A DNA stretch of 64,000 nucleotides from Candidatus Zixiibacteriota bacterium (GTDB lineage: Bacteria; Zixibacteria; MSB-5A5; GN15; PGXB01). The notes below the pieces were generated by a model. That model was given only the letters and a program-made list of their open reading frames with translations. It had not been told where the DNA came from and did no database searches. Within the stretch, counting starts at the first letter, position 1, and each line of letters opens with the position of its first letter. The DNA lies in contig JAFGTT010000019.1 of NCBI GenBank assembly GCA_016933955.1, positions 124,001 to 188,000 of the forward strand, written 5' to 3'. Made by a program: the position numbers and the translations under genes. Shown here in pieces: positions 1,427-10,629 of the stretch.

Positions 1427-2287
1427 ATGTCGGATTTATACCTTGTCGAATTCAAAGGGAATCGCAGGGAATTTTATAATAATACCTATTATCATTCACT
1501 TCGATTGAACGAACCGGTAATTGTTGAAGCGGAGCGGGGTGAAGACGCCGGGATATTGAGAAAGAAGATCGAGGCCGAGGTCAAATTACCCGATGAGGAA
1601 AAACCGCGCTCGATTTTAAGACCGGCCAGCGAGGAAGACAGACGCAAAATTGCGGAGAATCGTACCGATGAACAGGATGCCTGGGATAAGGCCCAGAAAC
1701 TTATAGAGAAACATAAGCTGGAAATGAAGCTGATCGATATTGAATACCAGTATGACCGTAATAAATTGACCTTTTTCTTTACGGCTGAACACCGGGTGGA
1801 TTTCCGTGCCCTGGTTCGGGATCTGGCGGCAGTTTATCGGACCAGGATCGAGTTGCGGCAGATCGGTGTCCGCGATGAGGCCAAACGTGTGGGGGGGCTG
1901 GGAATTTGCGGCTTGCAACTGTGTTGTTCATCATTTTTACGAAAGTTTGACCCCATTTCAACTCAGGATGCGCGGATTCAGGGTTTATCGCTCAATCCTT
2001 CAAAGATATCGGGCAATTGCGGCCGTCTTCTGTGCTGTCTCAAGTATGAGACGGATTTTTATACTTACGTAAGGGAGAATTATCCCGAGATCGGCGATAA
2101 GTTTGTAACCGCGCGCGGGGAAGGAGTGGTGGACAGGATTAATGTGTTTGACGATTATATGATAATAAAATTCGAGGATGGTGAGGAAGAGACTGTTCAC
2201 GGACTGGCGCTGCGAAAACAACGCCGGCTGAAGGAATCGCAATTCAGTCAATGGCTTGAAATTCTGGAAAAGAGCAACAAAAAATAG
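1427..2287 (+). CDS. ricT: PSP1-domain protein, RicT/YaaT family
   Basis: 286-residue protein with the PSP1 fold. Two cysteine clusters are conserved: GICGLQLCC near residue 163 and SGNCGRLLCC near residue 196. In Bacillus the YaaT (RicT) protein joins YlbF and YmcA in an iron-sulfur-containing complex that affects RNA processing through RNase Y; that is family knowledge, and no partner gene is visible here. The C-terminal part (GDKFVTARGEGVV) resembles the small beta domain of the family. Its place directly after holB is the standard neighbourhood. TTGAGGTAACC lies just before the ATG. It is followed within 15 bases by metG. Confidence 0.9.
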   Translation: MSDLYLVEFKGNRREFYNNTYYHSLRLNEPVIVEAERGEDAGILRKKIEAEVKLPDEEKPRSILRPASEEDRRKIAENRTDEQDAWDKAQKLIEKHKLEMKLIDIEYQYDRNKLTFFFTAEHRVDFRALVRDLAAVYRTRIELRQIGVRDEAKRVGGLGICGLQLCCSSFLRKFDPISTQDARIQGLSLNPSKISGNCGRLLCCLKYETDFYTYVRENYPEIGDKFVTARGEGVVDRINVFDDYMIIKFEDGEEETVHGLALRKQRRLKESQFSQWLEILEKSNKK

Positions 2288-2300
2288 TCGGAGGAAAACA

Positions 2301-4214
2301 GTGCCGAAACCGTTTTATATTACAACCCCCATTTACTATGTCAATGATCGTCCGCATATCGGACATTCATATACAACCATCGCCGCCGACCTGCTGACCC
2401 GTTTTCAGCGTCTTAAAGGTCGCGAGGCCTTTTTTCTGACAGGTACCGATGAGCATGGTAATAAAGTTGCCGAAGCCGCGGCCGCCAGTGGATTGGCGCC
2501 CCAGGAATTCTGTGACCGGGTGGTTCGTCAATATGAAAAAGCCTGGAAAGCTCTTTCGATCGAATATGACGATTTTATCAGAACCACTCAGGATCGGCAT
2601 ATCAGGGCCCTTGAAAAAATCATGATGGTTCTTAAGAATGCCCGAACACCATCGGGAGAAGATGTAATATATTCCGGGACCTATGAAGGCCTTTACTGCA
2701 TCGGTTGCGAAAAATTCTTGACCGATAAAGAACTGGTCAATGGATTATGTCCCGACCATAAGAAAGCACCGACAACGCTCAAGGAAAAAAACTACTTTTT
2801 CCGTCTCAGCGCCTATCTGGATAAACTCTGGGAAATCATTGAAAAGAATGAAATGCTGATTCTCCCCGAGGAACGCCGCCGCGAGGTCCTAGGGCTGTTC
2901 AAACAGGGCCTGGCCGATTTTTCCATCTCCCGCGAAAAAGTTACCTGGGGTATTCCGTTACCTTTCGATAAAAGCCAGCATGCCTATGTCTGGATCGATG
3001 CCCTTTTCAATTATATCACCGGGATCGGTTACGGAGCCGATGAAAAGAAATTCCGGAAATGGTGGTATGATTCGGAGTCAATTCACCTGATGGCTAAGGA
3101 TATCCTTAAATTTCACTGCATCTTCTGGCCGGCCATGCTGATGGCGGCCGGATTGCCATTGCCCAAAAAGATTTTTCTGCATGGCTTTTTTACCGTGGAC
3201 GGTGAAAAAATGTCCAAGTCGCTTGGTAATCAGATCGACCCGATTGAGATGGTGGAGCAGTTCGGAGCGGATGCCACGCGATACCTGTTGTTGACGCAAT
3301 ATCCTTTCGGGGCCGATGGTGATATTCAGCAGTCGCGATTTATCACCAAGTACAACAGCGATCTGGCCAATGATCTGGGGAATCTGGTATCCCGAGTGGC
3401 CAAAATGATCCTGGCCAATTTCGACGGCAAGTTACCGGGACCGAGCGATAAACTGGAGGGAGCCCGAGAATTGATCGAACAGGCGGAGTTACTCTCGGAA
3501 GCAGTCAATGATCATCTTCATAATTTTCGTATCGGTTCGGCCATCGACAATACCATGAACCTGATTCGCCAGACCAATCGGTTTTTTGATACCAATGCCC
3601 CTTGGAAGCTGGTCAAAGATAATAAAATGAAAGAAGCCGGGGGGGTTCTTTATACCTGCAGCGAAATTCTCCGGATTGTCTCGATTCTTATTTATCCGAT
3701 CATGCCGGGTAAAGCGCTGGAGATTTTGTCGATCTTCGGGCTGGATGAAAAAGAATTGAACATGGATACCGCCAGAACCTTTTTCAATCTGAAACCGGGG
3801 GAGCCGGTCATATTCAAAGATGCCATATTCCCCAGGCTGAAAGACAAAAAGCAAGAAAAAGCGGATACCCAGGCGGTTGGCAGTAGTGATGGTCTGATCG
3901 ATATATCCGAATTCGGGCAATTGCAACTGGTCGTGGCCGAGGTGCTCCGGGCCGAAGCAGTCGAGGGGGCCGATAAGCTTTTAAAACTTCAGATAAATGT
4001 CGGATCGGATACCCGGCAGATAGTGGCCGGGATAGCCCAATTTTACAAACCGGAACAGATGGTCGGGAAAAAGATTGTGGTGATCAAAAATTTGAAACCG
4101 GCCAAAATCCGTGGTGTGGAATCTTACGGTATGCTGCTGGCGGCCAAAAAGGGTAAAGACCTGTTTCTGGTTATCCCGGAGGGTGATCTCCCGGCCGGAG
4201 CGACAATCAGCTGA
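2301..4214 (+). CDS. metG: Methionine-tRNA ligase with C-terminal tRNA-binding domain
   Basis: Class I synthetase of 637 residues that charges tRNA(Met). HIGH motif at residues 19-22 (PHIGH), KMSKS at about 303-307. A single zinc knuckle is visible as CIGC ... CPDH, the one-knuckle form also found in Thermus MetRS. After the anticodon domain, the last ~105 residues (DISEFGQLQLVVAEV ... GVESYGMLLAA) form an EMAP-II/Trbp111-like OB fold that binds tRNA and usually makes the enzyme a dimer. The start is GTG 2301 with GTCGGAGG eight bases upstream; the longer in-frame ATG at 2256 lies inside ricT and has no ribosome site. The TGA stop overlaps the ATG of tatD by one base. Confidence 0.97.
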   Translation: MPKPFYITTPIYYVNDRPHIGHSYTTIAADLLTRFQRLKGREAFFLTGTDEHGNKVAEAAAASGLAPQEFCDRVVRQYEKAWKALSIEYDDFIRTTQDRHIRALEKIMMVLKNARTPSGEDVIYSGTYEGLYCIGCEKFLTDKELVNGLCPDHKKAPTTLKEKNYFFRLSAYLDKLWEIIEKNEMLILPEERRREVLGLFKQGLADFSISREKVTWGIPLPFDKSQHAYVWIDALFNYITGIGYGADEKKFRKWWYDSESIHLMAKDILKFHCIFWPAMLMAAGLPLPKKIFLHGFFTVDGEKMSKSLGNQIDPIEMVEQFGADATRYLLLTQYPFGADGDIQQSRFITKYNSDLANDLGNLVSRVAKMILANFDGKLPGPSDKLEGARELIEQAELLSEAVNDHLHNFRIGSAIDNTMNLIRQTNRFFDTNAPWKLVKDNKMKEAGGVLYTCSEILRIVSILIYPIMPGKALEILSIFGLDEKELNMDTARTFFNLKPGEPVIFKDAIFPRLKDKKQEKADTQAVGSSDGLIDISEFGQLQLVVAEVLRAEAVEGADKLLKLQINVGSDTRQIVAGIAQFYKPEQMVGKKIVVIKNLKPAKIRGVESYGMLLAAKKGKDLFLVIPEGDLPAGATIS

Positions 4215-4990
4215 TGATTGATTCTCACTGTCATCTCGATTTCAAGGAATTCAACGGGCGGCAGGAGCAGATTATTAAGGATGCTCTCACTGCAGGAGTC
4301 CATACCCTGATCAATATTGGGGCGGATCTTGATACTTCGAGAAATTCGGTCGATCTGGCTAATAAATATGAATGTGTCTATGCCGCGGTTGGAGTACATC
4401 CCCATGATGCCCGAAAATATAATGGGCAAACGGATATCGAGTTGATACAGCTGTCGGAGAATAAGAGAGTGGTGGCAATCGGGGAGATAGGTTTGGATTT
4501 TTATCGCGATCTTTCGCCCCGAGACCAGCAAAAAAGGATTTTTCGCCGTCAGCTCGATATCGCCATCGACAGAAAACTCCCGGTGGTAATACATTCTCGT
4601 GATTCGTTTCGCGAAACGGTGGATATTATAAAGGAGTACACCGGACGATTGATCGGCGCTGTTTTTCATTGTTTTCCTGGTACGGTTCGTGATGCCAGGG
4701 AAGTTATTGATCTCGGTTGTAATATCGGGATCGGCGGGGTGGTGACATATCCGGGATCAAAAATGGCCCAGGTGGCGGCCGAAATTCCACTGGAATCAAT
4801 GCTACTGGAAACCGATTGTCCTTATCTTACGCCGATTCCGTACCGGGGTAAAACCAATCAGCCGGCCTATCTCAGTTACATAAGGGATGAAATCGCGGAG
4901 GTTCGTGGAATCAGTCCGCAGGAAGTGGACAAAATCACCGACCGCAACAGCCGGAAGTTTTATCGTCTGGTGGAAGTTTTTGGGGGGTGA
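4214..4990 (+). CDS. tatD: TatD family metal-dependent deoxyribonuclease
   Basis: 258-residue TIM-barrel hydrolase. All metal-binding motifs of the family are visible in order: DSHCHLD at the N-terminus, GEIGLDF near residue 95, VIHSRD near 130, FHCFPG near 155 and LETDCPYL near 203. Family members cut DNA 3' ends and act in repair or RNA/DNA turnover; cellular substrate here is not known. Translation is probably coupled to metG through a TGATG overlap. rsmA follows after six bases. Confidence 0.93.
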   Translation: MIDSHCHLDFKEFNGRQEQIIKDALTAGVHTLINIGADLDTSRNSVDLANKYECVYAAVGVHPHDARKYNGQTDIELIQLSENKRVVAIGEIGLDFYRDLSPRDQQKRIFRRQLDIAIDRKLPVVIHSRDSFRETVDIIKEYTGRLIGAVFHCFPGTVRDAREVIDLGCNIGIGGVVTYPGSKMAQVAAEIPLESMLLETDCPYLTPIPYRGKTNQPAYLSYIRDEIAEVRGISPQEVDKITDRNSRKFYRLVEVFGG

Positions 4991-4996
4991 AATAAT

Positions 4997-5797
4997 TTGC
5001 CCGGGCAGAAACCTCAAAAAAAATTCTCGCAGAATTTTTTGGCCGATAAAAAGATCGCAGACCGGATTGTGGCCCTTCTCGATACCACGCCTGACGATGT
5101 CATTTTTGAGATCGGCAGTGGCCGGGGAACTCTGACCAAACTTATCGCTGAATCCGGGGCCAGGGTTTTCTCTTTCGAACTGGATCGCAGGCTGATCGAT
5201 GATCTGAATAAAAAATTCGACAACTGCGAGAATGTCAGAATTGTCAACGGAGATTTTCTCCGGGTCGAGCCCGGGGATTACTACTCAGGTAAATTTAAAC
5301 TGATCGGCAATATTCCCTACGATATCACTTCGCCGCTGATAGACTGGATTATCAGGTTTCGAGAAAGAATCGTCCGGGCGGTGATTACTACCCAAAAAGA
5401 ACTGGGGGATAGAATCAGTTCTCATCCGGGAAGCCGTGATTGGGCGCCGATCGCTGTTTTTTGCCAGTGTTTTTTTGAGATAAAAACAGTGATGACTATT
5501 CCTCCTTCAGCCTTTTATCCGCCGCCCAGGGTGATCTCATCGGCTCTGATATTCGAACCCCGGACATCACCGGAGATTTCAGACCGAGAAACATTCGAGC
5601 TGATCGTCCGCCGCGCTTTCAAACAGCGCCGTAAATTGCTGGTTAACAACCTGGACGGGTTTGAGGGTTTGGATAGAAAAAGTGTCGAACTTATTCTGGA
5701 TAGCCTGGGAATCGACCCGAAAAGCCGGGCCGAACAGCTTGGAATCGGGGATTTTATTGCCCTGTCGGAAGCTATCACATCGGCAAAATTATCTTGA
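4997..5797 (+). CDS. rsmA: 16S rRNA adenine(1518)-N6/adenine(1519)-N6 dimethyltransferase
   Basis: 266-residue SAM-dependent methyltransferase (KsgA family) that dimethylates two adjacent adenines near the 3' end of 16S rRNA during 30S maturation. Seen: the N-terminal FSQNFLADK box, SAM motif I EIGSGRGTLT, acidic FELDRRL, the GDFL stretch and the catalytic motif IV NIPY. The C-terminal helical domain ends with SLGIDPKSRAEQL, typical of the family. The start is a TTG at 4997, seven bases after a run of G (GGGGGGTGA) that serves as ribosome site; no better ATG lies in frame. Confidence 0.95.
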   Translation: MPGQKPQKKFSQNFLADKKIADRIVALLDTTPDDVIFEIGSGRGTLTKLIAESGARVFSFELDRRLIDDLNKKFDNCENVRIVNGDFLRVEPGDYYSGKFKLIGNIPYDITSPLIDWIIRFRERIVRAVITTQKELGDRISSHPGSRDWAPIAVFCQCFFEIKTVMTIPPSAFYPPPRVISSALIFEPRTSPEISDRETFELIVRRAFKQRRKLLVNNLDGFEGLDRKSVELILDSLGIDPKSRAEQLGIGDFIALSEAITSAKLS

Positions 5798-5845
5798 AGG
5801 AAATTTCTAAAAAGACTACCTTTCGGGTAAAATCGGGAGGATATT

Positions 5846-6574
5846 ATGCCATCAGTTTCAATCAAAGTGGATTATGCCGCCTCTTTGCGAAATATACGGG
5901 GATTCAAAGAACCGGATCCTTCTCATGCCGCGGTGATAGCCGAAATTGCGGGAGCCGACGGTATCTGCTGTCATCTGCGGGAGGATCGGCGGCATATTCG
6001 CGATCGGGATATCTACATCCTTAAGGAAGTCACTCGAACCAGATTCATTCTTCAGATCGCCCCGATCAGTGAAATGATTGAACGGGCGATAGAAGTGAAA
6101 CCGGCCCTGGTCACTCTGATGCCTTTTTGTCCTGACGAAGCCTATATCGAAAACGGAATTGATCTGGAGGCTAACCGAGATCAATATGCCGAGACGGCGG
6201 AAGGACTTATGGCCGAGGACATACCGGTCGCTTATTTTATTGATCCCGACAGTAGTGCGGTTAAAGATGCCGCGCGGGTCAAGGCGGCCGCGGTGGAACT
6301 CAATACTATCCATTATGCCACGGCCAAAACGGTGGAGAACGCCGATACAGAACTGGATCGGCTGGATCAGATGGCCCAGCTGGCGGCCAAACTGGGGATG
6401 ACAGTTCGTTGCGGTAATGGATTAAATTATAAAAATATCATGCCCCTGATCGAGTTGGGAGTTTTCAATGATTTTGCCCTTGGCCATGCCGTTATCAGCC
6501 GGGGATTGATGGTTGGACTGGATCGGGCGGTCAGAGAACTGGTCGAGATGATCCATCGGCCGGTTGTGGAATAA
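5846..6574 (+). CDS. PdxJ-like protein with substituted active site
   Basis: 242 residues align end to end with pyridoxine 5'-phosphate synthase (PdxJ), an (alpha/beta)8 barrel that condenses 1-deoxyxylulose 5-phosphate with aminoacetone 3-phosphate. HLREDRRHI (residues 43-51), Glu151 and LGHA are kept. Several residues used for catalysis in E. coli PdxJ are not: the catalytic Glu72 position is Gln70 (ILQIAP), His193 is Asn191 (CGNGL), His10 is Tyr10 and Asn7 is Lys7, the PEKR loop is MPFC, and EIHTG reads ELNTI. Fold membership is clear from the sequence. Ordinary PNP synthase activity is therefore doubtful. GGGAGG precedes the ATG. It stands between rsmA and a pseudouridine synthase, with no other vitamin B6 gene in the window. 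A true but unusual PdxJ cannot be excluded. Confidence 0.8.
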   Translation: MPSVSIKVDYAASLRNIRGFKEPDPSHAAVIAEIAGADGICCHLREDRRHIRDRDIYILKEVTRTRFILQIAPISEMIERAIEVKPALVTLMPFCPDEAYIENGIDLEANRDQYAETAEGLMAEDIPVAYFIDPDSSAVKDAARVKAAAVELNTIHYATAKTVENADTELDRLDQMAQLAAKLGMTVRCGNGLNYKNIMPLIELGVFNDFALGHAVISRGLMVGLDRAVRELVEMIHRPVVE

Positions 6575-6597: not shown

Positions 6598-7590
6598 ATG
6601 ATTGATAACAACGCTGGATATAAGACAGTATCGCTGGTCATTCCCGATCAGGCCGCCGGTGAACGACTTGATCGCTATCTGGGTCATATGGAAGGAATTG
6701 AACTGACCCGGAGTAAAATCCAGAAGCTGGTCGAGGATGGTCTGGTGATGGTTGATAATTACCCCGCCGGACACAACCAGAAGCTCAAAGGCGGTGAAAT
6801 TATCATTATCAATATACCGCCGACTCCTGTTTCTGATATTCGGGGCGAAGAAATCCCGCTCGATATTGTCTATGAAGATGAATATCTGATAGTTGTCAAT
6901 AAGCCGGCGGGAATGGTGACTCATCCGGGGGCCGGTAATTTCTCAGGGACGCTGGTTAATGCTGTCTTGCACCATACCGAGCGGATTTCTAATGTCCAGG
7001 GGCGGGAACGGGCCGGAATAGTCCACCGCCTTGACAGAAATACTTCCGGCCTAGTGATGATTGCCCGCGATGACAAAACGCATCTTGCGCTTCAAAAGCA
7101 ACTGAAAGAACGCCGGGTCGAAAAAACGTATTTGGCCATTGTCTGCGGCCATATGAAAGAAGAAACCGGGATTATTGATTTACCGATAGGTCGTTCACTT
7201 AAAGACCGCAAGAAAATGGCCGTGACTTATCAGCATTCCCGTCCGGCCCGAACCGAATATCGCCTTCTGGAACGGTTTCGACTGTATGACTTCCTGGAGA
7301 TAAAGCTTGAAACCGGACGGACGCATCAAATACGCGTGCATTTTTCACATCTTGGTCATCCTCTTCTGGGTGATCCCGAATACGGCGGGCGGACCAAATG
7401 GCACCGGGGAATTTATTCGGCCGATAAAATTATTGCCGAAAAAGCCCTTGCCATGATTGACCGGCAGGCTCTTCATGCCGGAACGCTGGGATTTACTCAT
7501 CCGGTGACAGGTAAAATATTGAAATTTAATTCTCCTCTCCCCGGGGATATGGCGAAACTGCTGGATTATCTGAGAACCGAAGGGGCATAA
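6598..7590 (+). CDS. RluD-family 23S rRNA pseudouridine synthase
   Basis: 330 residues. An S4 RNA-binding domain opens the protein (GERLDRYLGHM ... LVEDGLVMV, about residues 20-75), followed by the RluA/RluD catalytic domain. The catalytic aspartate lies in the signature HRLDRNTSG near residue 142, and ETGRTHQIRVH near 240 is the second conserved box. Members isomerise uridines in 23S rRNA helix 69 or elsewhere; the exact target cannot be read from sequence. A strong hairpin terminator begins three bases after the stop. Confidence 0.93.
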   Translation: MIDNNAGYKTVSLVIPDQAAGERLDRYLGHMEGIELTRSKIQKLVEDGLVMVDNYPAGHNQKLKGGEIIIINIPPTPVSDIRGEEIPLDIVYEDEYLIVVNKPAGMVTHPGAGNFSGTLVNAVLHHTERISNVQGRERAGIVHRLDRNTSGLVMIARDDKTHLALQKQLKERRVEKTYLAIVCGHMKEETGIIDLPIGRSLKDRKKMAVTYQHSRPARTEYRLLERFRLYDFLEIKLETGRTHQIRVHFSHLGHPLLGDPEYGGRTKWHRGIYSADKIIAEKALAMIDRQALHAGTLGFTHPVTGKILKFNSPLPGDMAKLLDYLRTEGA

Positions 7591-7640: not shown

Positions 7641-9095
7641 CTATTCAATAACCGGTTCGATCAATTCGATATTGGTGACCTGACCGAAATCATCCAAAGA
7701 TCTATCATAATCATCGGGATTACCAACCACAACCAGCGTAAGTGAATCCGGTTTCAAGTATTCGATGGCGACTCTTTTTATATCATCCATAGTAACCTGT
7801 CGATAATAATCCAGGTATCGTTGGTAGTAGTCTGGCGGGTAGCCATTAAATTCCAGTGAAATCATGTTATTTATTATCTCGCCGGAGTTATCAAAATTGA
7901 AAATGAAGCGGTTGATAGTAGCCTCGCGGGCTTCATCGAGTTCAACGTCAGTAACACCCTCGTCGCGAATTTTCCGAATTTCATTCAGCATCAAACCGAT
8001 AGCCTTATGAGCGGTCGCGCTTTTGGTCTGGCAATAGGCCTCAAAGGTCCCAAAGTCGCGGTTGCCGGTATTGTATCGGGAACCGACCGAATAAGCCAGA
8101 CCTTCATCGGAACGAACAGTCGATGTCAAACGGGAGGTGAAGGAGCCGGCCCCGAGAATATAGTTCAAAAGGTCGATAGCATAGCGATCGGGGTTATTCC
8201 GCTTGATACCCAAGTGGCCGAGAAGAATATAAGCCTGATTGATTTCTTTTTTTATCTGGAACACTCCGGGGTGAGAGGTATATAATACCGGTGGGTAATC
8301 CGGTAGAACCTGTCCGGATTTTTTCCAATCCCCGAGGTTTTTTTTCAATTTCTCGAGAACATCTTTTTTATTAAAATCGCCGGCGATCCCAATAATGATA
8401 TTTTCCGGGACAAAGTACTTCCGATGGTACGAAACCAGGTCATCACGGGTAATATCCCTTACGATAGGCCATTCCTGGATGTGGCCATAAGGATGATCAC
8501 CGTATATGATGTTGTCGAAATAGCGGCTGGAAATGCCGTGGGGATTGTCGTTTCGTCTTTTAATTTCGGTTTTGATATCTTCTTTGGCCAGGTCGATTTT
8601 ATCCTGGGGAAAGGCCGGATGCCGCAGAAGATCGGAATATAATTTCAAACCGAATTCTGTATCACCGGAGAGAATACTCAGATTGGCCGTGCCGTTTTCC
8701 ATCCCGATCCCGGTCTCAAGTGATCCCGCGATAAATTCCAGCAGGATATTCAGGGAATCGCCGCTGATGGTTTCGGTCCCCCCGGTACGCATTACCTGTC
8801 CGACCAGCCTCGAGAGCCCCTGTTTTTCGGAGGGGTCAAAGATATCGCCGCATCGGATAATCGTATAAAGGTTAAAAAGCGGAAGGGAATGATCCTCGTA
8901 CAGGTAAACTACCAGGCCGTTGTCCATGACGATCCGATCGATATCCATGCCGATTTCGGGGATATTTAATTCGATGGGCTCGTATTTAAACGCCTCAATA
9001 ATGGCCGCTCCACGGGACTTGCCGCTTCCGGCCTGACCATAAACTGCAATCGATATCAGCAGGATTGTTATTATAATTGCCGGTTTTTTTATCAT
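7641..9095 (-). CDS. Secreted M16-family peptidase homologue lacking the zinc motif
   Basis: About 484 residues with an N-terminal signal peptide (IIITILLISIAVYGQA) and two pitrilysin/MPP-like domains. The position where active M16 enzymes carry HxxEH reads LSRLVGQVM, so zinc cannot be bound in the usual way. The C-terminal half has the Arg/Tyr pair region (RLTSTVRSDEGLAYSVGS) that non-catalytic partners keep. It is 13 bases downstream of an M16 gene with an intact motif, so the two probably form a heterodimer of mitochondrial-processing-peptidase type in the periplasm or outer membrane. Start is placed at ATG 9095 because GAGGAG lies nine bases before it; the ATG at 9104 abuts that site. Confidence 0.85.
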   Translation of the reverse strand: MIKKPAIIITILLISIAVYGQAGSGKSRGAAIIEAFKYEPIELNIPEIGMDIDRIVMDNGLVVYLYEDHSLPLFNLYTIIRCGDIFDPSEKQGLSRLVGQVMRTGGTETISGDSLNILLEFIAGSLETGIGMENGTANLSILSGDTEFGLKLYSDLLRHPAFPQDKIDLAKEDIKTEIKRRNDNPHGISSRYFDNIIYGDHPYGHIQEWPIVRDITRDDLVSYHRKYFVPENIIIGIAGDFNKKDVLEKLKKNLGDWKKSGQVLPDYPPVLYTSHPGVFQIKKEINQAYILLGHLGIKRNNPDRYAIDLLNYILGAGSFTSRLTSTVRSDEGLAYSVGSRYNTGNRDFGTFEAYCQTKSATAHKAIGLMLNEIRKIRDEGVTDVELDEAREATINRFIFNFDNSGEIINNMISLEFNGYPPDYYQRYLDYYRQVTMDDIKRVAIEYLKPDSLTLVVVGNPDDYDRSLDDFGQVTNIELIEPVIE

Positions 9096-9108
9096 GACCG
9101 TCATCTCC

Positions 9109-10629
9109 TCAGTACATTTTTCCGGCCGCCGCCGATGGTTTTTCGGATTCGGTTTTGACCAGATAGGCGACTGTTCTGTTTCGCCGGGTCAGGTATTTCC
9201 CTGCCACCCGCATAATATCCTCAGCTGTCACCTGGTTGATTCGTCGGTATGATTCCAGAAAATAACCCCAGTCGCCGGTCATCCCCTGGCTTCCTGACAG
9301 GCGCCAGGCCAGCCCCATATTGGAGTCTAAGGATCTAATCAGTGACGCCCGGGTTTGATTTTTGACCTTTTGCAGTTCCCACCCGGAAACCGGTTCGGTT
9401 TTTAGCCGCTCAATCTCCTGGTAAACGGCTTCTTCAAGTTCAGCAATGGTATGGTCTCCCATCGGGGTCAATGAACAGAAAAAAGCATCGGGATAACGAG
9501 AGGCCGAGGAGGAAGCGCTGACATTCCCCAGTTTCTTTTCTTTGATGTTCTTATAAAAGCGGCTGGTTCGCCCCATTGAAAGAATATTGGCGGTAACTTC
9601 CAGAGCCGCCTGATCGGGATGACCAATTCGGGGAGTCAACCAGCCGATATAGGCAATAGGATTGGCATCATATTCCACCGCGACCCGCCGTTCACCCTCC
9701 TGAGGTGCATCGACCGTCATGGTCGGCGGCGGCAGGGGAGGGGAGGGTATTTTCCCGAAATACCGTTTGCACAATTCGTAAACTTCATCGGCCCGGACAT
9801 CACCCACAATTGCCGCTACGGCGTTGGCAGGTGTATAATGCGAACGGAAGTAATCCTCGACATCTTCCCGAGAAATACGAAGCAAATCCGACATCCATCC
9901 CACCACCGGCCACTCGTAAGGAGAAGCCCAGAACATGGTGGCATTGAAGGCTTCGATTAAGCGGCCTCGGGGATTGTTTTCCCCCAGACGGCGTTCTTCC
10001 ATGACGACATCGCGTTCGGAGTAAAACTCACGAAAAATGTTATTCTGCATCCGGTCCGATTCCATGAAGGCCCAGAGTTCCAATTTATTTTTCGGCAGGG
10101 AAACATAGTAATTGGTGGCATCATTGCCGGTGGAAGCGTTCAGCCGGGTGCCGCCGTTCTTAAGGTAGGTTCCCCAAAGTTCGTCCTTGATAACATACTT
10201 TTTCTGTTCGGCCTGTACCGATGCAATTTGTTCCCGAAGTTCAAAATAGCGGCCTGAATCCGGCGGGTTGAGTGGATTTTGAAGTTTCACCTGTTCGGCA
10301 AACATCAGGGTGGCCAGGGAATCGATTCTGGCCATCAGGGGAATCTCGGCCTCATAGTCGGTTGTCCCCATAATTTTGCTTCCTTTGAACATCATATGTT
10401 CCAGAAGATGTGAAATTCCAGTAATTCCCGGCTGTTCATCGACTGATCCGGTGTTGAATCTGATTATCGCCGAAAAAACCGGAGCGGCCGGTTTTTCCAG
10501 CACCAAGACGGTCATTCCATTGTCCAGCGTGAATTTCCTGACGTCAAGTTCGATATCATCGGTCTGCGCGACCGCAGTTCCGAGTACCGGAAACAATAGG
10601 CTTATAAGAATTATCAGCGCCTTCCTCAT
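9109..10629 (-). CDS. Secreted M16-family zinc peptidase, catalytic partner
   Basis: 506 residues with a signal peptide (IILISLLFPVLGTAVAQ). The inverted zinc motif HLLEH is present near residue 78 (GISHLLEHMMFKGS), with the downstream acidic residues in a helix (ERDVVMEERRLGE). Two M16 domains follow. It heads a two-gene operon with the inactive homologue. AGGAG lies seven bases before the ATG. Substrates of such exported pairs are unknown in general; roles in clearing short peptides are proposed for the family. Confidence 0.9.
   Translation of the reverse strand: MRKALIILISLLFPVLGTAVAQTDDIELDVRKFTLDNGMTVLVLEKPAAPVFSAIIRFNTGSVDEQPGITGISHLLEHMMFKGSKIMGTTDYEAEIPLMARIDSLATLMFAEQVKLQNPLNPPDSGRYFELREQIASVQAEQKKYVIKDELWGTYLKNGGTRLNASTGNDATNYYVSLPKNKLELWAFMESDRMQNNIFREFYSERDVVMEERRLGENNPRGRLIEAFNATMFWASPYEWPVVGWMSDLLRISREDVEDYFRSHYTPANAVAAIVGDVRADEVYELCKRYFGKIPSPPLPPPTMTVDAPQEGERRVAVEYDANPIAYIGWLTPRIGHPDQAALEVTANILSMGRTSRFYKNIKEKKLGNVSASSSASRYPDAFFCSLTPMGDHTIAELEEAVYQEIERLKTEPVSGWELQKVKNQTRASLIRSLDSNMGLAWRLSGSQGMTGDWGYFLESYRRINQVTAEDIMRVAGKYLTRRNRTVAYLVKTESEKPSAAAGKMY

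Follow-up and report, generated by a model that had tools for sequence, protein, structure and literature searches.

The pdxJ gene of the window, that is, of the whole stretch of 64,000 nucleotides of Candidatus Zixiibacteriota DNA analysed here, encodes a PdxJ homologue that has lost catalytic residues and is under selection. We consider it probable that this protein is a pseudoenzyme which has outlived its pathway and is kept for a second function, probably exerted via its outer surface. PNP would no longer be made by it and, since the catalytic residues are gone yet the gene is kept intact in two phyla, a second job is probably what selection maintains. The gene, its neighbours and the codons discussed below are the following.

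4214..4990, plus strand: tatD, within the conserved series metG-tatD-ksgA (PF01026, synteny)
4997..5797, plus strand: ksgA, the conserved upstream neighbour (PF00398, synteny)
5835..5840, plus strand: ribosome-binding site GGGAGG, 5 nt 5' of the ATG (read directly)
5846..6574, plus strand: non-catalytic PdxJ homologue with the PNP-synthase fold (242 aa, ATG at 5846, stop at 6572-6574)
5864..5866, plus strand: Lys7, replacing the substrate-binding Asn9 of E. coli (alignment)
5873..5875, plus strand: Tyr10, replacing the substrate-binding His12 of E. coli (alignment)
5972..5974, plus strand: His43, equal to E. coli His45, kept (alignment)
6053..6055, plus strand: Gln70, replacing the catalytic Glu72 (alignment)
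6122..6154, plus strand: replaced active-site loop, residues 93-103, E. coli 95-105 (alignment; loop definition from PMC10471632)
6296..6298, plus strand: Glu151, equal to E. coli Glu153, kept (alignment)
6416..6418, plus strand: Asn191, replacing the catalytic His193 (alignment)
6598..7590, plus strand: rluD-type pseudouridine synthase, a downstream neighbour conserved in the taxonomic order (PF00849, synteny)

Membership of the PdxJ family is evident both from full-length homology and from the (beta/alpha)8 barrel. The protein matches PF03740 from end to end (residues 4-236; 229.7 bits, 3.5e-68, with a curated cut-off of 24.5) and scores above the NCBIfam equivalog cut-offs of NF003625 (235.5 vs 190) and TIGR00559 (203 vs 192.75), while its AlphaFold model (mean pLDDT 93.1) superposes on E. 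coli 1ho1_A over the whole chain, with 234 residues, a Z score of 36.5 and an rmsd of 1.2 A, in agreement with the full-length alignment to PNP synthase reported in the preliminary description. Other fold matches, such as indole-glycerol-phosphate synthase and ribulose-phosphate epimerase (Z about 20-21), were set aside as general phosphate-binding barrels.

The correspondence with E. coli PdxJ was read from a phmmer alignment to 1m5w, which has zero gaps and the constant offset of two residues noticed previously, the superposition output giving aligned ranges without residue pairs. From what we take to be the catalytic set of the E. coli enzyme (His45, Glu72, Glu153 and His193), and presuming the usual roles of its other residues, only two of the four members are found, His43 and Glu151, both of which had been recognized from the sequence. 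The replacements Gln70, Asn191, Tyr10 and Lys7 had also been named correctly, but the E. coli counterparts given for the last two as Asn7 and His10 should read Asn9 and His12. Further sites are kept, namely Asp11, Arg20, Arg47 and His52 (Asp9, Arg18, Arg45 and His50 in the window) and Gly194, Gly215 and His216 (Gly192, Gly213 and His214), and Thr102 has become Tyr100. The loop 95-105, PEKR...TTEGG in E. coli, which closes over the substrates (PMC10471632), is mostly swapped for MPFCPDEAYIENG, so that the PEKR loop is indeed gone. The change of EIHTG to ELNTI is equally real, but the Asn at E. coli position 155 that it brings is ordinary, being present too in canonical PdxJs of Zixiibacteriota. 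A misalignment hiding Glu or His is ruled out, because the gap-free alignment combined with the whole-chain superposition admits no shift by which either residue could be regained; the structure-based comparison proposed earlier as one way to overturn the reading does not, taken with this alignment, place them at the catalytic sites.

The gene content of the host genome, an assembly of 3.38 Mb in 38 contigs with a completeness of 96.6%, agrees with a loss of PNP synthesis. The search suggested in the preliminary description recovered neither a second pdxJ nor a pdxA in this genome, and found one pdxS with pdxT immediately after it (L213:1513-2109 and 2129-3010, minus strand; PF01174, PF01680), by which PLP can be made through the DXP-independent route. 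The DXP-dependent pathway, expected to show as PdxA co-occurring without PdxS, is thus contradicted on both counts.

The same association extends over the phylum. Among 132 Zixiibacteriota genomes, most of them incomplete metagenome assemblies, PdxJ matches were obtained in 85, PdxA in 10 and PdxS in 111, and 80 full-length PdxJs could be read. The full set His45-Glu72-Glu153-His193 is present in 10 of these 80, with PdxS absent from all ten genomes and PdxA present in nine. The remaining 70 lack at least His193, the one loss common to all non-catalytic relatives, and their genomes contain PdxA in no case and PdxS in 68, the two PdxS-negative ones being G013 (73% complete) and G122. His193 is replaced by Arg (35 cases), Gly (19), Asn (11) or other residues (5), and the further catalytic losses vary by family: Gln72/Asn193/Lys9 in the window's family, Gln45/Leu153/Arg193/Cys156 in the largest family, and Gly193/Gln153 in others. 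Families f15 and f16 (L076-L084), counted among the 70 and excluded from the trees, comprise PdxJ relatives that have diverged very far (45-94 bits) and in which the 102-105 loop region is deleted; they occur in PdxS-positive genomes away from ksgA and possibly represent a later stage of the same lineage.

In the genome collection at large, the canonical set is present in 74 of the 80 nearest loci, the other six being five genes of Zixiibacteriota and a KSB1 gene in which Lys replaces Glu72. This last gene (L136:6001-6714) is the main PdxJ of the KSB1 genome G135, which has no PdxS. PdxS occurs, among 30 genomes of several phyla with near relatives, only in the five Zixiibacteriota with an altered PdxJ. 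The phylum of the KSB1 genome (82 genomes) contains two classes of PdxJ by score: His193 and Glu72 are both missing from all 36 low-scoring proteins, and His45, Glu153 and His193 are kept in all 30 high-scoring ones that were read. PdxS, found in 38 KSB1-type genomes, accompanies the non-catalytic PdxJ in 35 of 36 and the canonical one in none of 30; PdxA is a poor marker in this phylum, as a PdxA-family gene is also present in many PdxS-positive genomes. A second PdxJ, on a long branch, is encoded by four KSB1-type genomes (L283:1877-2605, L284, L285 and L286:5465-6187); it keeps His45, Glu72, Glu153 and His193 and has Asp11 changed to Asn, His12 to Lys and Gly194 to Asp. In one of the four genomes a pdxA is found nearby, as are genes for a trypsin-PDZ protease and for an S49 peptidase. 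No two-peaked score distribution was seen, judged by scores only, for the 316 PdxJ matches in the phylum of the Desulfobacterales genome G141, and a search for viral copies of the gene found none.

The KSB1-type phylum has undergone the same change independently. In a quick tree without bootstraps, calculated with the catalytic columns masked, the non-catalytic PdxJs of Zixiibacteriota and those of KSB1 branch apart from one another, either set grouping with the rest of its phylum, which amounts to two changes (SH-aLRT 90-91 for the groups, with starred branches between them); Zixiibacteriota alone show one origin, with a support of 94. The genome counts given above are therefore not independent events, since they go back to two origins.

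The altered gene has also stayed in its old place. The operon described as conserved does recur throughout the order as tatD-ksgA-pdxJ-rluD. In canonical Zixiibacteriota genomes the gene order is metG-tatD-ksgA, an outer-membrane-like protein, two lipoproteins and pdxJ; the non-catalytic pdxJ of families f9, f10 and f17 occupies the same position, and in the taxonomic order that includes the window the middle genes are missing, which leaves ksgA-pdxJ-rluD inside tmk-holB-ricT-metG-tatD-...-purM-gpmI. Close to pdxJ, 26 of the 30 canonical KSB1-type loci have a divergent polysaccharide deacetylase gene (PF04748), which is present at 30 of the 36 non-catalytic loci. The locus being shared in both phyla, the altered genes are orthologues, by position, of working pdxJ genes, and this, together with the grouping of each set with its own phylum, rules out that an odd PdxJ was acquired horizontally. 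Seven genomes from three families (G019 and G021; G067, G068, G069 and G071; G072) have no pdxJ, and their ksgA directly adjoins rluD, clean junctions that point to clean loss and not to gradual decay.

Several other features of these loci may be recorded. The trio of an outer-membrane-like protein and two small lipoproteins between ksgA and pdxJ (L091, L094, L095, L096, L100, L102 and L104) occurs at canonical and at several non-catalytic loci; in the KSB1-type phylum, pdxJ is accompanied by related lipoproteins and by the polysaccharide deacetylase gene. In the window, two M16-type peptidase genes (7641-10629, minus strand) break the rluD-purM run; the window's family shares this pair with one f3 genome, and it is not there in the f2 loci that reach purM.

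Selection on the gene is strong. In most of 19 same-genus pairs PdxJ varies less than do KsgA and RluD of the same pair; wherever dS was computable, omega ranges from 0.016 to 0.147, mostly under that of ksgA, and no internal stop occurs among the matches listed from 85 Zixiibacteriota and 76 KSB1-type genomes. These low ratios and intact frames rule out a pseudogene and bear out the argument against decay previously made from the intact frame and the good ribosome site of the window's gene, both of which are as described.

Conservation has shifted away from the old catalytic face and, in relative terms, towards the outer helices, as maximum-likelihood site rates show with no prior choice of pocket residues. 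Fifteen pocket positions are invariant in canonical PdxJs; in the non-catalytic families the pocket positions vary like the rest of the protein (p 0.04-0.87, with one weak exception), the phosphate-site glycines being almost invariant. The relative rates of the catalytic face and the helices are 0.69 and 1.41 in canonical PdxJs of Zixiibacteriota, 0.54 and 1.59 in those of other phyla and 0.74 and 1.47 in those of KSB1, and in the five non-catalytic groups 1.13/0.91, 0.94/1.06, 1.01/1.02, 1.21/1.03 and 1.16/0.99. Of the 25 sites that slowed most in the window's family, 21 belong to helices (p 1.3e-6), and of the 25 that gained most in rate, 18 lie on the catalytic face. The conserved helices of the two phyla have few residue identities in common. 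An evolution of the catalytic face without constraint is ruled out by the region-wise dN/dS of close pairs, which is 0.075 and 0.087 on this face in non-catalytic proteins vs 0.055 in canonical ones; only the extra long-range constraint is gone, so that the pocket is not free but merely no longer held to one solution.

From these observations a course of events can be proposed. An ancestor within Zixiibacteriota adopted PdxS-PdxT for PLP and lost PdxA, as the distribution of these genes shows; PdxJ would then have lost catalysis, the sequences showing that His193 went in every case, and the gene remained at its old locus beside ksgA under strong purifying selection. The protein, a descendant of the PNP synthase of the organism itself, presumably had, or gained, a second function independent of PNP synthesis, which may act mainly via the outer helical surface and the oligomer, with the barrel as a scaffold that binds a partner or regulates; the old pocket would at most bind a ligand that differs between lineages. 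As candidate partners one can guess at PdxS-PdxT and at the proteins encoded in the ksgA-rluD operon. Tentatively, we would go further and regard as possible, if doubtful, an ancient non-enzymatic role of PdxJ, consisting of partner binding by the outer helices alongside catalysis in ordinary bacteria, visible only where PdxS-PdxT took over, and surviving alone in at least two phyla.

The main rival to the pseudoenzyme is a new reaction, carried out by a redesigned enzyme whose barrel keeps the phosphate-binding end (G194, G215) and D11, R17 and R50, and whose pocket differs by family. The constrained catalytic face and the pocket residues fixed by some families (K9/N193 in the window's family, Q45/C156/R193 in another) leave a place for a ligand or a reaction, and both the purifying selection on this face at short range and the almost invariant phosphate-site glycines are in its favour. 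However, within families the pocket is conserved no more than the rest of the protein, the old active-site positions are among the fastest-changing, and there is no residue set common to families or phyla, unlike what one new reaction would lead us to expect; we thus hold a redesigned enzyme to be unlikely.

The preliminary description had left the choice among a new reaction, a regulator and a divergent PdxJ, and whereas a role other than PNP synthesis is supported, the last of these fares badly. A divergent but working PNP synthase, still adding to B6 synthesis, would explain the scores above both equivalog cut-offs and the retention of H43, E151, R45, H50, G192, G213 and H214, but it is very improbable because PdxS-PdxT is present, PdxA is absent and H193 is lost universally, to which we may add that E72 and the loop are gone and that the relatives differ in their further catalytic losses. 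Even though pdxJ is missing from five families of the class and cleanly and independently deleted in several genera, we give next to no credit to a decaying relic left after pathway replacement and awaiting loss, since the dN/dS is low, the frames are intact and of stable length in all listed relatives, and the gene has been retained, twice, since before the families diverged. The clean deletions in at least three families are, however, a counterpoint to the pseudoenzyme as well, for they show that the gene is dispensable; the scarcity of residue identities between the conserved helices of the two phyla also speaks against it.

That a B6 enzyme was retained on two independent occasions once its chemistry had gone suggests a hitherto unrecognized second function of PdxJ, which would be testable also in organisms whose PdxJ remains an enzyme. 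In practical terms, the annotation as PNP synthase, a name still assigned by the equivalog models, is probably wrong in two phyla and about a hundred genomes.

With E. coli PdxJ (PDB 1HO1, 1M5W) the protein of the window shares fold, length, full-length alignment, the phosphate-binding glycines, His45 and Glu153, and with the canonical PdxJs of the wider phylum the gene position. It differs from the E. coli enzyme in the replacement of Glu72, His193, His12, Asn9 and the loop 95-105, and in a genome without PdxA and with PdxS-PdxT. Our survey of the open literature, subscription papers being outside its scope, found no description of a PdxJ pseudoenzyme. The use of pdxJ as a signature of the DXP-dependent pathway was met in the accessible text of one study (PMC9997740), which lists ten genomes seemingly with both pathways, the DXP-dependent one being incomplete; among them, Caldithrix abyssi and Fibrobacter succinogenes likewise have a PdxJ homologue annotated beside PdxS-PdxT. 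Both pathways are also attributed to Syntrophus aciditrophicus. That text, as far as accessible, does not mention residue loss in PdxJ; a non-catalytic PdxJ would account for such genomes, which are compared here by their description. The nearest precedent, which does not amount to a family assignment, is PDX1.2 of eudicots, a PdxS homologue that is non-catalytic and has a regulatory effect on plant B6 synthesis (PMC6829848). Like the PdxJ of the window, PDX1.2 is a conserved homologue of a B6 synthase that has lost key active-site residues, and it is regarded as a pseudoenzyme (PMC6829848). PDX1.2, however, is a paralogue with a regulatory part in B6 synthesis, next to catalytic homologues of its own (PMC6829848), whereas the PdxJ of the window, for which a regulatory role is putative and whose gene is absent from some PdxS-positive relatives, is the sole copy in a genome whose active pathway relies on another barrel enzyme, PdxS.
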